Origin: Haemophilus sputorum CCUG 13788
GTDB lineage: Bacteria > Pseudomonadota > Gammaproteobacteria > Enterobacterales > Pasteurellaceae
DNA: 64,000 nt
Reading direction: 5' to 3'
NCBI RefSeq assembly: GCF_000238795.1
Contig: NZ_AFNK01000071.1
Span: 62,001 to 126,000, forward strand
This document shows, piece after piece, positions 12,885-23,824 of this stretch (its first letter is position 1; each line of letters starts with the position of its first letter). The position numbers were made by a program, and so were the translations under genes. The notes under the pieces were generated by a model that was not told where the DNA came from, did no database searches, and worked only from the letters and a program-made list of their open reading frames with translations.

Positions 12885-13752
12885 ATCAAACATTGCTTTT
12901 AATTTCTCTTGATCGGCAAGTTTCAACACACAGCCGCCCGAAGGCGGCTGCGCGAGACAAACTTTGCACGCTCGACATTACTCAAAGTTTCAACACACAG
13001 CCGCTCGAAGGCGGCTGCTTTCCCATATTGATTGGATGCGAGCAAGATATAAAGTTTCAACACACAGCCGCTCGAAGGCGGCTGCAAGCAAGGGGCGCGG
13101 CTATGGTAATAGCCTAACCAGTTTCAACACACAGCCGCTCGAAGGCGGCTGCGCTTTGACTAATTCAGATAAAGCCCATTCATACGGTTTCAACACACAG
13201 CCGCTCGAAGGCGGCTGCCAACAAAAACGTATCACAACTGTTGTTATTGAAGTTTCAACACACAGCCGCCCGAAGGCGGCTGCGCATCTTGATCAAGAGT
13301 AGCGTTAATTGTTTCCGGTTTCAACACACAGCCGCCCGAAGGCGGCTGCGGGTAACTTCTTACGCGCGTGATCGCTATATGACGGTTTCAACACACAGCC
13401 GCCCGAAGGCGGCTGCTTCCATATGGATTCTCCTTGTTTACCATTTAAAAGTTTCAACACACAGCCGCCCGAAGGCGGCTGCGTGCGGAGTATTGGTGGC
13501 CTTTTTTGCATCCCTATCGTTTCAACACACAGCCGCCCGAAGGCGGCTGCTTTTGCGCCAGCGCCAGCAACTACTGGTGTAAAGTGTTTCAACACACAGC
13601 CGCCCGAAGGCGGCTGCTTGAGACTAAAGCGGAGGCAAGCCGCTTTTTTAATGTTTCAACACACAGCCGCCCGAAGGCGGCTGCGTTCGGGATTTTCGTA
13701 TTTTCTTGTAGCTCGCTATAGTTTCAACACACAGCCGCCCGAAGGCGGCTGC
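12853..13752 (-). CRISPR. type I-C CRISPR array, 13 perfect-length repeats plus one degenerate terminal repeat
   Basis: Repeats of 32 bp begin (plus strand) at 12920, 12987, 13054, 13121, 13187, 13252, 13318, 13385, 13451, 13519, 13586, 13653 and 13721; spacers are 33-36 bp. A degenerate repeat occupies 12853-12884, giving 13 spacers. Read on the minus strand the repeat starts GCAGCCGCC, has a TTCG loop, then GGCGGCTG and ends TGTGTTGAAAC. That is an 8-bp stem closed by a UUCG tetraloop and an 11-nt 3' part that would be the I-C crRNA 5' handle after Cas5c cleavage. The orientation follows from the cas operon, the leader beside cas2 and the decay at the far end. Repeats starting at 12987, 13054, 13121 and 13187 carry one substitution (GCTCGAAGG for GCCCGAAGG, plus strand). 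Confidence 0.98.
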
Positions 13753-14239: not shown

Positions 14240-15253
14240 TTATCTCATCAAAAACGGCGGATATTCCGCTAAATCTCCGCGCAAGTGCCGCGCCAACAGC
14301 ATGGCCTGAATATACGGCAGCAGCCCGATTTCCACTTCCTCGCCTAAAAACGGATGAACGATTTTCTCCTGCTTCTTCGCCTGCAAAGCTTGGAACAAGA
14401 GCTTACGCGCATCGGCCTTCAGGCTCACCGCGCCACTCGCCTCGGTAACAAAATCCTGCGGTTTGATTTGTCCTCGGTTAATCAGCGACAACACCAACCT
14501 GTCTGCCGACCACGCGCGGAATTCTTCCAAAATATCCTGCGCCAAACTATCGCGCCCCGGTCGGTCGGCATGCAAAAAGCCCACCTGAGGGTCCAACCCC
14601 ACGCCTTGCAGCGCGCCACTGATATCCTTACCTAAAATGCTGTACACAAACGACAACAGCGCATTCACCCCGTCTCTGGGCGGACGGCGGTTGCGCCCGT
14701 CAAAAGAAAAACCGCTTTTTTCGCTCAAAAGCTGCCCGAACACGCCGAAATAACGCGCCGCCGCATCGCCCTCAATACCACGCACCACGTCTAGTTCGGC
14801 CGCGCCCTTCAACTGCCGCAGCGAAATATTCAAAGCATCGACCGCACTTTGAATCGCCGCATTCTCGCCGTAATTGCGAATCTGCCGCTGAAGCACCCGC
14901 TTACTCGCCTGAATCTTCGCCGCAATGATATTGCGTGCAATTGGCACGGGATTTTGCTCCGACACCCGATACTGCGCCCGACGCAACAGCACATTGCCGC
15001 TCTGCCGCCCCTGAAGCCGTCCCAGGAAACGTCCGTTTTCGGTAAAAAACGCCAAATTCACATTATTTTCACCGCAAAATCCCAACAAAAACGGCGATAC
15101 CAGCACATTCCCGAAACAGAAAATATGCCCGATGGAATGCACCGGCAACTGCGCCACCTTCTTACGCTCCTGCTCCACCACCAGCGTCTCCCGCTCCTTA
15201 TGCAGATAGCTGCCTTGGGTGGTGATATAGAGTGTGTTTTGCAGTTTGCGCAT
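14240..15253 (-). CDS. cas1: CRISPR-associated integrase Cas1 (type I-C)
   Basis: Metal-dependent integrase of new spacers. The chosen start at 15253 gives MRKLQNTLYITTQGSYLHKE, the usual I-C Cas1 beginning, and has a strong AAGGAG box about 8 nt upstream. A longer reading frame to 15304 adds 17 unlikely residues. The 337-aa product has the ligand regions VRGIEGDAAARYFG and GFLHADRPGRDSLAQDILEEFR. Its base composition is high: 35 of 60 bases at 14581-14640 are G or C, against 15 of 60 at 15541-15600 in the next gene upstream. It is separated from cas4 by two non-cas genes. Confidence 0.96.
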   Translation of the reverse strand: MRKLQNTLYITTQGSYLHKERETLVVEQERKKVAQLPVHSIGHIFCFGNVLVSPFLLGFCGENNVNLAFFTENGRFLGRLQGRQSGNVLLRRAQYRVSEQNPVPIARNIIAAKIQASKRVLQRQIRNYGENAAIQSAVDALNISLRQLKGAAELDVVRGIEGDAAARYFGVFGQLLSEKSGFSFDGRNRRPPRDGVNALLSFVYSILGKDISGALQGVGLDPQVGFLHADRPGRDSLAQDILEEFRAWSADRLVLSLINRGQIKPQDFVTEASGAVSLKADARKLLFQALQAKKQEKIVHPFLGEEVEIGLLPYIQAMLLARHLRGDLAEYPPFLMR

Positions 15254-15304
15254 GTAGAACTCCTTAAGGTTTGACAGCAGTTTTGTTTTGAACCGGCTTG
15301 TCAA

Positions 15305-15319
15305 TTTAGACTGTCTAAA
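15305..15319. promoter_or_regulatory. perfect palindrome upstream of cas1, possible operator
   Basis: TTTAGACTGTCTAAA is a perfect 7+1+7 palindrome. It lies 51 bp upstream of the cas1 start in the gap left after the two inserted genes, where a separate cas1-cas2 promoter could lie. On the minus strand TTGACA follows immediately (15298-15303), but I do not see a matching -10 box. A regulator-binding role is inference. Confidence 0.35.
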
Positions 15320-15396
15320 AAATCATACTTGTAGATAGCTTGAAATAAAAAGCAAATAATCCATCAATATACATGCCTAAATACACACTACGATTT

Positions 15397-16338
15397 TTAA
15401 TCAATTTTTATATTGCAATTTTTCGCAATACATTCTCCAAATGGAGTTAATGGCTTAATTAACGCGTCAAATTCAGAAACATCTATTTTCATAAATTCAA
15501 TAAACTCAATAAGATCTGGGAAGTCAGTTTTTATATTTTCTGTTTTATAATTATTTACGCCTAGAGAATCACCCAAAAGTTTTAACGTATTAATCTTATA
15601 AGATTTATCAGAAAAAACCATATTATTCAAAGCGAGTAAATCAATATTTACAGGGGAAGAAATATTCTCCATAAAGAATTTTGAAATACCGTTTATATAT
15701 TTCTTGTAAAGTTCCTTTGCCTGTTGTATTAAATTAGTTTGGGATTCTTTTGAATTAACATTACTAACAATCTTTTGATAAACGTTAAAAAAATCACTAT
15801 AAAACTCTCCATCATCATGCTGAACCGAAACATAAAGAGGCTTTCTAAGGCATTTGATGAAACACAAGAAAAACACCTGATCCTTGTTTAAGTATTTTAG
15901 ATATGATATAGCTTGATTGATTAAATAATCATTATTATTACTACTTAGTTTATCCATTAACAAATTTGCCAATACCTCATTTAATGAAATATCATTCTTT
16001 GTCCCAACTTGGTTAACCATTTCACTAATTAAACTTTGTACTTCAGAAGAAGCAAATCTTTTCTCCATTTCTTCATCAATTCGACCACTTACAGCCTCAT
16101 CGACAGTTGAATTTAGCTTTTCATGGAATTTAAATGCTAAATCTGCAATGGCTCTATATGATTCAGATCTTGCATTTTCTATCAAGCTAGGTAACTTATC
16201 AGAAAATAGTTCCTCAAATAGATTTTGAATTTCAGAAACTGAAAGCCCAATATTTATATTACCAGTGATGTCTCCTTGATTTTGTAAAGATACAGAATTT
16301 TCACCCTGAGATAATGTTAATTTTTTTCCCAAAACCAT
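15397..16338 (-). CDS. non-cas protein inserted in the cas operon (LPO_1073/Vpar_1526-like)
   Basis: A 313-aa protein of unknown function between cas4 and cas1. It opens with a motif rich in Q, N and G: SLQNQGDITGNINIGLS (about residues 17-33). A mostly helical body follows with the amphipathic EIQNLFEELFSDKLPSLIENARSESY-type helices and ISLNEVLANLLMDKLSS. The opening and the following F-x-E-x-F ... A-R-x-x-A pattern resemble, from memory, a hypothetical family called LPO_1073/Vpar_1526; no function is known for it. No signal peptide or membrane segment. Translation appears coupled to the small gene before it: 3-bp gap, with AAGGA overlapping that gene's stop. It is strikingly AT-rich compared with the cas genes. 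Confidence 0.7.
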   Translation of the reverse strand: MVLGKKLTLSQGENSVSLQNQGDITGNINIGLSVSEIQNLFEELFSDKLPSLIENARSESYRAIADLAFKFHEKLNSTVDEAVSGRIDEEMEKRFASSEVQSLISEMVNQVGTKNDISLNEVLANLLMDKLSSNNNDYLINQAISYLKYLNKDQVFFLCFIKCLRKPLYVSVQHDDGEFYSDFFNVYQKIVSNVNSKESQTNLIQQAKELYKKYINGISKFFMENISSPVNIDLLALNNMVFSDKSYKINTLKLLGDSLGVNNYKTENIKTDFPDLIEFIEFMKIDVSEFDALIKPLTPFGECIAKNCNIKID

Positions 16339-16341
16339 TTT

Positions 16342-16605
16342 TTAATCCTTTTTGTTTATTTGATTAATATTTATGTTGCCATTAATTTTTCCAGAATTTT
16401 GAATATTTTGTATATTATCTCCATTTAAATTAGCACTTATATTATTTTTAACAAATCTATCTCTCATGTAACTAGCTCCAAATAATAACGACAAAGCACC
16501 AAATATCATGGACCAGCTATTAGGATTCAATCCCAGAAAAGACTTATCAAAAATATTTGTAATAAAAGCCAAAAGCAACCAAACAATAACGAAAAATATT
16601 TTCAT
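16342..16605 (-). CDS. small two-helix membrane protein with GNINI tail, inserted in the cas operon
   Basis: The chosen start at 16605 has a perfect AGGAG box 5 nt away and gives 87 aa: MKIFFVIVWLLLAFITNIF (first membrane helix), a short loop LGLNPNSW, a second hydrophobic helix SMIFGALSLLFGASYM, then a polar tail. The tail ends NSGKINGNININQINKKD and shares its Q-N-x-G-x-I-x-G-N-I-N-I pattern with the N-terminus of the neighbouring 313-aa protein. A longer frame to 16647 would overlap the end of cas4 and is less likely. I know no family for it. The pair looks like a membrane anchor plus a cytosolic partner. Confidence 0.65.
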   Translation of the reverse strand: MKIFFVIVWLLLAFITNIFDKSFLGLNPNSWSMIFGALSLLFGASYMRDRFVKNNISANLNGDNIQNIQNSGKINGNININQINKKD

Positions 16606-16630
16606 ATATTCTCCTAAAAATACCAATAAA

Positions 16631-17287
16631 TCAAAAGCATTTACCAAACAACTCCGCTACATACCCCACACTCCTATCCCGTTTCCCCAGCAACTCCGGC
16701 TGGCAAATCTCCACCAGCGAGCAGGCTTTGCAGCGTTTGCCGTAGTCGGGCGGCGGAGTTTGTCCGCTGTTTAGAAGTTCGCGCACGGCGGCGATGGTGG
16801 CGAGAGTTTGGGTGCGTAGGTCGTCTGAAAACACGACGGGGATACGGTGGCGGGTTTGCATATACCACAGCGCGCCATCAGAGACGATTTGCCCCGTCAT
16901 TTCTTCCAGGCACAAGCCTTGGGCGCAAAGCTGGATTTCGTCCATCGGGTCGGGTTTGGGCTTGCCACGTTTGTATTCCACGGGTTTCAGACGGCCTGTT
17001 TTTGTATCCACTTCCACCAAATCCAACACGCCGCTGATGCCCAGCTTCTCCGCCGACACATGCACCGTCCGCTCAAAGCGCACGCCCTTGCGCGTTTCCG
17101 GCTCGCCCGAATCCACCCGCTCATGCAGCGCCTTTCCCTGCGCGGTCAAATAGTTCTCCGCCCACGCCTGCTCGTTGTGAATCAACGCGCATTGGCGCGG
17201 ACAAAAGGCGTAGTGTTGCAGGGCGGAAAGGGGAATCAGACGCGTGTCCTGATTGTCCCCTTGGCTTTCGGTTGAAAGTGCGGTCAT
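16631..17287 (-). CDS. cas4: CRISPR-associated exonuclease Cas4 (type I-C)
   Basis: Fe-S cluster, RecB-like nuclease that trims prespacers and checks the PAM during adaptation. The 218-aa protein shows the N-terminal cysteine motif FCPRQCAL (Cys29, Cys33), the nuclease motif GVLDLVEV ... VEYKRGKPK and the C-terminal cluster cysteines Cys186, Cys189 and Cys195 in KRCKACSLVEICQ. It begins 13 bp after the cas7 stop. Two DUS 12-mers lie inside it and a H. influenzae-type USS overlaps its start codon. Its normal partner cas1 is displaced by 1.4 kb. Confidence 0.95.
   Translation of the reverse strand: MTALSTESQGDNQDTRLIPLSALQHYAFCPRQCALIHNEQAWAENYLTAQGKALHERVDSGEPETRKGVRFERTVHVSAEKLGISGVLDLVEVDTKTGRLKPVEYKRGKPKPDPMDEIQLCAQGLCLEEMTGQIVSDGALWYMQTRHRIPVVFSDDLRTQTLATIAAVRELLNSGQTPPPDYGKRCKACSLVEICQPELLGKRDRSVGYVAELFGKCF
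16818..16829 (+). other. Neisseriaceae DNA uptake sequence (perfect AGGTCGTCTGAA)
   Basis: Perfect match to the 12-mer uptake sequence dialect of Neisseria mucosa-type species. It lies inside cas4 and is foreign to Pasteurellaceae. Confidence 0.85.
16986..16997 (-). other. Neisseriaceae DNA uptake sequence (perfect AGGCCGTCTGAA)
   Basis: Perfect AG-type 12-mer DUS read on the minus strand inside cas4, where the coding reads through the motif without disturbing the frame. Confidence 0.85.
17276..17284 (+). other. H. influenzae-type uptake signal (AAGTGCGGT) at the cas4 start
   Basis: AAGTGCGGT, followed by CA and a T-rich stretch, matches the Hin-type USS including its downstream AT tract. 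It overlaps the start codon of cas4. The rest of the window uses the Apl-type signal, so this one stands out. Confidence 0.6.
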
Positions 17288-23428: not shown

Positions 23429-23519
23429 ATCGATTCTCCAAATTCAAAACGCGCAAAATTTAACGAACAAGCTATATAAATTAGCTTGAAGTGTTGAAAA
23501 GTCGAAAATCTGTGGAATG

Positions 23520-23531
23520 AGGTCGTCTGAA
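23520..23531 (+). other. Neisseriaceae DNA uptake sequence (perfect AGGTCGTCTGAA)
   Basis: Perfect 12-mer in the tail of the cas3 relic, close to the point where homology to Cas3 stops. Confidence 0.85.
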
Positions 23532-23672
23532 AAGTTGTCAGCGGTCAAGCGCATAACGGTGGCTTGGGCAACGCTGTCTAAGCCTGCTTCGGCACGCATT
23601 ACCAGCGGGAAATCCACATCCACACCGGCTTCAATTAATGAAGTGGCGATGACGCGGTAGGATTTACCGTTT

Positions 23673-23684
23673 TTCAGACGACCT
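23673..23684 (-). other. Neisseriaceae DNA uptake sequence (perfect AGGTCGTCTGAA)
   Basis: Perfect 12-mer on the minus strand, in opposite orientation to the copy at 23520, inside the cas3 relic (encoding the GRLKNG stretch). Confidence 0.85.
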
Positions 23685-23824
23685 CGGCTCTCATCGAACT
23701 TTTGGCTGCGGTGTTTGGCACACATTAGGATGGTTAGGTGGAACGTGCCGTCAAGATGTTTATCTTGCGCAGAATGGGCGTAGTATGATTGAGTTTGAAT
23801 ATAGCAAGAAGAAGTTTCGTCCAT

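Follow-up and report, generated by a model that had tools for sequence, protein, structure and literature searches.

Pairs of the HET-S/HELLP and NLR/Bell kinds are thought to act by a disturbance of the membrane that is templated by a short motif. The bacterial NLR/Bell amyloid signalosomes and their BASS motifs were reportedly described by Dyrka et al. in 2020. In these signalosomes, the two genes are adjacent or overlapping, and the motif is found at the N-terminus of the NLR protein and at the C-terminus of the Bell protein, which carries the membrane helix (accessible text of PMC7889193). The same text places BASS-type pairs mainly in filamentous bacteria, and the accessible parts of PMC8086366 and PMC12261475 treat such signalosomes as well. 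Defence genes also have known places of residence. For example, the space between the A and Q genes of P2 phages is a hotspot for defence cargo (available portions of PMC9122126 and PMC9519451).

The pair of genes considered here recalls both themes. It lies in the window, by which we mean the whole stretch of 64,000 nucleotides of Haemophilus sputorum DNA that was analysed, and it interrupts a complete type I-C operon with the order cas3-cas5-cas8-cas7-cas4-[small gene-313-aa gene]-cas1-cas2. Each of the cas genes has a match to an NCBIfam model, and a CRISPR array with 13 exact repeat cores (12920-13721) adjoins the operon after cas2. The features of the locus are as follows.

14240 to 15253, minus strand: cas1 (type I-C), the downstream edge of the slot; TIGR03640, E 1.2e-145 (match from 15232; start at 15253)
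15254 to 16630, minus strand: the cas4/cas1 cargo slot as filled in the window genome, from the comparison with 55 other loci
15397 to 16338, minus strand: LPO_1073/Vpar_1526 family gene, 313 aa; NF045477, E 9.2e-15; proposed sensor or receptor
15397 to 16248, minus strand: body of the LPO_1073 protein, helical with a long first helix in the modelled homologue (L015)
16249 to 16305, minus strand: N-terminal shared motif, residues 12-30 of the LPO_1073 protein, GENSVSLQNQGDITGNINI; BLASTP against the small protein
16342 to 16605, minus strand: gene of the small membrane protein, 87 aa, hydrophobic at its N-terminus and with the motif towards its C-terminus; putative effector at the membrane
16366 to 16422, minus strand: C-terminal shared motif, residues 62-80 of the small protein, GDNIQNIQNSGKINGNINI; BLASTP against the 313-aa protein
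16631 to 17287, minus strand: cas4, the upstream edge of the slot; TIGR00372, E 6.4e-41
16986 to 16995, minus strand: DUS-like uptake sequence core GCCGTCTGAA within cas4; 1 match against 0.08 expected, found in 8 of 100 shuffles
17276 to 17284, plus strand: uptake sequence core AAGTGCGGT at the start of cas4; 2 in the window against 0.45 expected, with 6 of 100 shuffles reaching 2

The first-pass annotation had described two tightly coupled, AT-rich genes of 87 and 313 codons running in the same direction between cas4 and cas1. The coordinates and the short gaps proved correct (25 bp between cas4 and the small gene, 3 bp between the small gene and the 313-aa gene), as did the contrast in G+C content (15 of 60 against 35 of 60 in cas1). 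A longer gap of 143 bp separates the 313-aa gene from cas1. The G+C content of the module as a whole is 27.6%, a value as low as which is found in just 2 of 1256 windows of equal length. Sequences resembling ribosome-binding sites precede both starts. The small protein has 87 aa when read from its ATG, and an alternative upstream TTG would extend it to 101 aa. The shared strand, the short gaps and the lack of any terminator-like site on the cas strand within the module make transcription together with the cas genes plausible. It stays at plausible because three promoter-like matches on the cas strand lie inside the module (the region has 12 in total, against 7.9 expected). Elsewhere in the window, a 126-aa ORF at 23444-23824 resembles a piece of the Cas3 helicase and lies beside the full cas3; it is perhaps the remnant of a second cas3.

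The interruption had been regarded as unusual, since cas4, cas1 and cas2 normally adjoin in such loci. This is true outside the family of the host: of the 25 loci there whose cas1 is similar, 23 show a cas4-cas1 gap between -10 and 18 bp, a further one lacks a cas4 match in its stretch, and the last gives a meaningless value. Within the family it does not hold. The sample consisted of 55 cas4 places in 52 other genomes, counting L108, which has degenerate cas genes and a negative gap, and in 42 of these 55 the gap exceeds 300 bp, with a median of 1056 bp. The neighbouring junctions rarely open in this way, as gaps of more than 300 bp are seen in 0 of 51 cas7-cas4 junctions and 2 of 53 cas1-cas2 junctions. 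Within this sample, the slot appears to be specific to the lineage.

What fills the slot is varied. The cargo of 39 loci amounts to 56 ORFs with a length of 60 aa or more, which fall into 45 clusters, and 52 of the 56 are read in the direction of the cas genes. Where one genome has two operons, the cargo of the two differs (L055/L056, L078/L084 and L087/L089). A Pfam search covered 40 representatives of the 45 clusters (the other five have 74-139 aa). It recognised DarT with Macro, SMODS with SLATT_4, SLATT_5, a CAP12-type TIR, an OLD TOPRIM with AAA_15, GmrSD twice, a reverse transcriptase, HNH_5, PIN_12, NYN-LOTUS, Fic, RhuM, Nmad2 and others, together with an HxlR regulator, a transposase and methyltransferases, which are not defence genes; 12 of the 40 representatives had no Pfam match. 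When PADLOC was applied to the 40 representatives plus the window protein, 252 models matched at least one of these 41 proteins, and the best 25 of the 252 include AbiP2, DarTG, Old, a CBASS cyclase, a 2TM effector, PD-T4-7 and candidate PDC systems. In the family of the host, the cas4/cas1 junction is therefore a slot for diverse cargo, defence genes included. The P2 A-Q (old/tin) and P4 psu-int hotspots likewise hold short, swappable cargo, much of it for defence, between two conserved genes (available portions of PMC9122126 and PMC9519451). The cas4/cas1 slot differs in being inside a CRISPR operon.

Some of the other cargo deserves a look in its own right. Candidates with no Pfam match over the cut-off are the proteins of 573 aa in L058, 249 aa in L077 and 589 aa in L075. 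An N-terminal NFYGTTQIVNGDVHNVN that resembles another short motif is found in a cargo protein of 222 aa (L076, 4965-5633), which is also hydrophobic in two stretches. In L080 (1275-3147), overlapping genes encode a protein with a membrane helix and a HATPase_c protein, possibly a two-gene system that has not been described. As for the literature, a search of the titles and abstract openings of openly available papers found no description of the pair or of the cas4/cas1 slot, and neither is mentioned in the accessible part of PMC5704561. For LPO_1073 itself, the titles and abstract openings yielded an outer-membrane proteome paper and no account of the pair.

How might cargo enter and leave such a slot? 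The uptake-core matches in the window alone are weak. In the cas4 genes of the 42 cargo-bearing loci, GCCGTCTGAA occurs 15 times against 0.10 in shuffles, GTCGTCTGAA 23 times against 0.00 and AAGTGCGGT 19 times against 0.23, counts that are not independent of each other because the loci are related. In 11 of the 42 loci (against 0.00), the core AAGTGCGGT is also found at most 120 bp upstream of cas1, and cas1 itself contains it 12 times against 0.57, with almost none of the other cores. We take GCCGTCTGAA to be the Neisseriaceae-type DUS core and AAGTGCGGT to be the Haemophilus-type (Pasteurellaceae) USS core; the latter is not abundant in the window genome (84 occurrences, with 49 for its reversed control). 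The presence of AAGTGCGGT in cas4 and before cas1 of many loci hints at an exchange of these operons. Since the uptake cores lie far above the shuffles in cas4 and, in the case of AAGTGCGGT, before cas1, natural transformation, acting through homology in cas4 and cas1 and through the uptake sequences, is the likely route by which cargo would be exchanged.

The larger protein of the pair does belong to the LPO_1073/Vpar_1526 family (NF045477), as had been proposed, with 55 bits against a curated cut-off of 45 over residues 31-201. The model covers part of the body alone and is silent on both the membrane partner and the motif. The window genome has a single copy. The protein also matches phrog_19542 (E 5.9e-8). 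It has no Pfam match over the cut-off and, in Pfam, no NTPase domain, and PADLOC-DB 2.0.0 contains 0 families that match either protein of the module at E up to 5. A tblastn search with the 313-aa protein against plasmids and phages returned no match, and a first viral scan was likewise empty. The P-loop pattern (G-x4-G-K-S/T) is absent from all 23 of 23 LPO_1073 proteins, and the polar residues that are almost invariant in the body (R118, E133, Q145 and H189 in L015 numbering) form no recognisable catalytic motif.

Structure prediction gives a poor model for the window protein (pLDDT 40.6) and a better one for the L015 homologue, with a mean pLDDT of 84.2 and a pTM of 0.77. In the latter, the motif region has block means of 44-51 pLDDT and is followed by a helix of 45 residues and then by a helical body. 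Foldseek found no match for the L015 model in the PDB at E up to 0.001, and no fold was recognised in BFVD either; its best VIA match (Z 7.6) is inside the range for chance matches between helical proteins, and among solved structures the best sequence match has an E of 0.25. We had taken the body to resemble Abi_alpha (PF14337) and DUF2806 (PF10987). Comparison by hhalign gave probabilities of 0.1% and 0.7% for the two, using shallow profiles with 4 rows and with 7; a wrong ORF (L185) is among the 7, and Abi_alpha and DUF2806 themselves reach just 3.1% with each other, so the comparison has little power.

The small protein has no Pfam match over the cut-off. It had been called a two-helix protein, and the first hydrophobic stretch is indeed clear (best 19-residue mean of 2.3). 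The second helix is likely and not certain because the second stretch stays below 1.4 on the same scale. Across the loci that were read, the small proteins have about 60-93 aa and consist of a hydrophobic part followed by a tail. The 19-residue mean hydropathy is at least 1.6 in 15 of 24 and at least 1.4 in 19 of 24; those of L003, L010, L011, L142 and L171 are below 1.4, yet they have the same WIFSG-type stretch. The anchor comes in two forms, either as a single stretch of the NxEWIFSGxG type or as a longer form with two stretches (in the window, E. coli, Glaciecola and Pantoea), and it looks exchangeable. A search with the WIFSG membrane-helix pattern matched one more LPO_1073 pair (L171), a receiver-like protein (L169), a chance ORF (L170) and a stretch with no ORF over the matched site (L172). 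In L169 (11227-11841), the WIFSG-type helix opens the receiver-like protein, which lies beside a 349-aa protein. This type of anchor may thus be common to other signalling systems as well.

The two genes recur together, which the first-pass annotation had named as a sign of a system. All 24 of the 24 distinct, intact LPO_1073 loci that were read have the same layout, with a small ORF that overlaps the LPO_1073 gene or stops up to 9 nt before it (counted from the first possible start), and both motifs. These loci are the window, the genomes L003 and L004, E. coli prophages, Pantoea, Marinobacter with Marinobacterium, Halopseudomonas, a Saccharospirillaceae MAG, Glaciecola, Streptomyces tauricus, the genomes L137-L142 and L144, and seven viral contigs. 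Copies that are nearly identical count as one locus (L008 with L009; L007 and L019-L023 with L005; L016, L017, L024, L159-L161 and L165 with L015; L156 and L164 with L014; L157 and L163 with L018; L167 with L166; L154 with L137). The count excludes L143/L151, in which LPO_1073 is truncated, L145, which is below the cut-off and has an internal stop, and the phage record H33.

The way in which the loci were found matters for this count. The small protein played no part in the search for 23 of the 24; L171 alone came from the membrane-helix pattern. Ten loci (window included) were found with NF045477; in the window, this profile starts to match past the motif. The loci on genome contigs came from two body patterns followed by confirmation with full-length tblastn, and those of E. 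coli and Pantoea from full-length tblastn. The loci from some of the viral scans are biased for the motif because the LPO_1073 motif itself served as a search pattern there.

The family is rare and patchy, being found in 1 of 140 genomes of the bacterial family of the host, in 3 of 398 genomes of a phylum sample and in 10 of 394 genomes of one order (one of these ten below the cut-off). The surroundings of the pair vary as well. A terminase gene lies near the pair in L149, and tyrosine integrases (Phage_integrase plus Phage_int_SAM_4) lie near those of L147, L009 and L011. Because these three look to us like integron integrases, the pair may travel as an integron cassette, too. When 95 of the 112 listed ORFs that flank LPO_1073 elsewhere were run through PADLOC, 26 families were found among them, compared with 252 models for the 41 proteins of the slot analysis, so these neighbourhoods are only weakly defence-like.

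What the two proteins share is a motif of about 20 residues, rich in N, Q, G, S and T, at the C-terminus of the small protein and at the N-terminus of LPO_1073. Its consensus is about Q-x-x-G-x-N-S-T-x-I-Q-x-G-x-x-V. In the window, GDNIQNIQNSGKINGNINI and GENSVSLQNQGDITGNINI are identical at 11 of 19 positions (BLASTP E 2e-4). A profile of all small-protein tails matches a profile of all LPO_1073 heads with an E of 4e-12. A DNA pattern for the motif matched two LPO_1073 loci that were already known and two stretches with no such ORF.

The motif is common to both partners, and it is also matched between them. Over 23 pairs (L171 was left out), the similarity of tail to head averages 52.8 for cognate and 38.2 for non-cognate combinations (z 7.4; 0 of 20,000 permutations). 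For 13 divergent pairs the z is 5.9, and for eleven, with the window and Pantoea removed, it is 4.6. As a control, the membrane part was compared with the post-motif part of the partner, and the scores were 15.7 for cognate and 15.0 for non-cognate combinations. The cognate motif is ranked first in 7 of 23 pairs and within the top three in 13 of 23; L015 pairs poorly, with a cognate rank of 14 of 19. Relatedness alone does not seem to be the cause of the match. Set against the head from the nearest relative, the cognate head wins in 17 of the 23 pairs, with 3 ties and 3 losses, and where a fairly close relative exists (body score of at least 0.36, n = 16) the tally is 10 wins, 3 ties and 3 losses.

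Another of these pairs occupies a slot of a different kind. In E. coli, the genes (81 and 285 residues) lie between those for the replication endonuclease (P2 A) and the portal protein (Q) of a P2-like prophage, so the A-Q hotspot holds the pair itself. This copy is annotated in NZ_CP028732. A search of 5426 E. coli genomes found 1239 that match some of the query and 6 that match at least 80% of it; among the matches listed, 29 of 30 cover about 45-75 bases at the edge of the query and no more.

Compared to the BASS-type NLR/Bell systems, the similarities are in the layout. The genes are adjacent or overlapping (a gap of 3 bp in the window, and elsewhere from an overlap to a gap of 9 nt), and a similar short motif ends the membrane-helix protein and begins its partner, with motif types that vary between systems. 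The differences are in the parts. The partner is an LPO_1073 protein, with no NTPase of the NLR type (NACHT/NB-ARC); the putative effector consists of a hydrophobic anchor and the motif, leaving no room for a Bell bundle; and some hosts, for example E. coli, are unicellular, in contrast to the mainly filamentous hosts of BASS pairs. Because the NLR ATPase and the Bell bundle are missing, we do not file the pair as a member of BASS, and it works like one at most. The activation of a membrane executioner by a templating motif, if it takes place here, would also be like that of the fungal HET-S/HELLP-NLR pairs and the metazoan RHIM necrosome (accessible text of PMC7889193), from which the pair differs in the sequence of the motif and in being a bacterial two-gene unit.

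The pair recurs as a unit, its motif is matched between partners, the N-terminus of the small protein is hydrophobic in most members, and the genomic slots are of the defence type. The presence of the pair in two independent slots for defence cargo, cas4/cas1 and P2 A-Q, suggests a role in defence, and because of it an accessory, membrane-acting defence unit, one of the possibilities raised by the first-pass annotation, is the best reading. In its full form, which we hold with slightly more belief than doubt, the pair would be a mobile two-component anti-phage unit, with LPO_1073 sensing, the membrane protein executing and the templating of one motif by the other coupling the two. The cytosolic body of LPO_1073, which is helical and lacks a P-loop, would respond to a cue of infection, and this response would release the disordered motif at its N-terminus or bring copies of it together. 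An ordered beta assembly, presumably amyloid in nature, could then form from this motif and act as a template on which the tail motif of the small protein takes up an identical fold. As a result, the membrane helices would cluster, the inner membrane would be permeabilised or disturbed and the infected cell would be stopped. LPO_1073 is assigned the part of the sensor for lack of another candidate, and the roles could be reversed.

The strongest competitor, which we consider possible though on the doubtful side, is that the motif is a plain homotypic tether that keeps LPO_1073 at the membrane at all times. The body of LPO_1073 would then be the effector, for example by binding a phage or host protein or nucleic acid. 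The evidence on the motifs is one of sequence similarity, and the variation of the anchor between one WIFSG-type helix and the two-stretch form fits a tether because such variation is expected if only anchoring matters. Yet motifs of this composition and length, at opposite ends of adjacent gene products and disordered in one model, have the layout of amyloid signalling, and an effector body sits poorly with conserved polar positions that form no recognised catalytic motif. A toxin-antitoxin or addiction pair, in which LPO_1073 restrains a membrane toxin for the stability of the element and defence is at most secondary, seems unlikely to us. A small hydrophobic protein encoded first, genes that overlap or abut, and the finding of the pair beside integrases, within prophages and in a prophage carried by a plasmid are all in keeping with it, but both proteins carry the same motif instead of a neutralising domain, and both of the slots are defence-cargo slots.

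Two further explanations look much weaker. One holds that the pair is neutral or housekeeping cargo, carried along by a variable slot. It would then have company in the regulator, transposase and methyltransferases found there, but the partner-specific match of the motifs is kept across phyla, which argues for selection on the pair, and the patchy spread (3 of 398 and 10 of 394 genomes) is unlike that of a housekeeping gene; we regard this account as improbable. Least credible of all is a CRISPR accessory factor or modulator of adaptation, which the first-pass annotation had also offered and which the position between cas4 and cas1 and the possible co-transcription would favour. LPO_1073 is found in 1 of the 140 family genomes and this cas4 in 53 of them (window genome included, at E 1e-20), the same slot holds unrelated cargo in relatives, and no cas gene was recognised in those flanks of other pairs that were read. 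In G377, the pair and a type I-C cas1 are on one contig about 2.2 Mb apart.

Taken together with the defence reading, the slot allows a wider and more tentative proposal, one that we would sooner doubt than believe. Amyloid-signalling immunity would exist in a form free of NLRs and in unicellular hosts, E. coli among them, and the cas operons of this family would offer docking places where interchangeable suicide systems come under the control of CRISPR expression, as a second line for when CRISPR fails. The cas4/cas1 slot, rich in defence genes and placed within a CRISPR operon, supplies a list of candidate systems and raises the question of whether cas expression controls the cargo. If the proposal is true, bacterial prion-like immune signalling needs neither an NLR ATPase nor a multicellular host, and the prophage pair of E. 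coli would be a minimal system for an ordinary laboratory strain.
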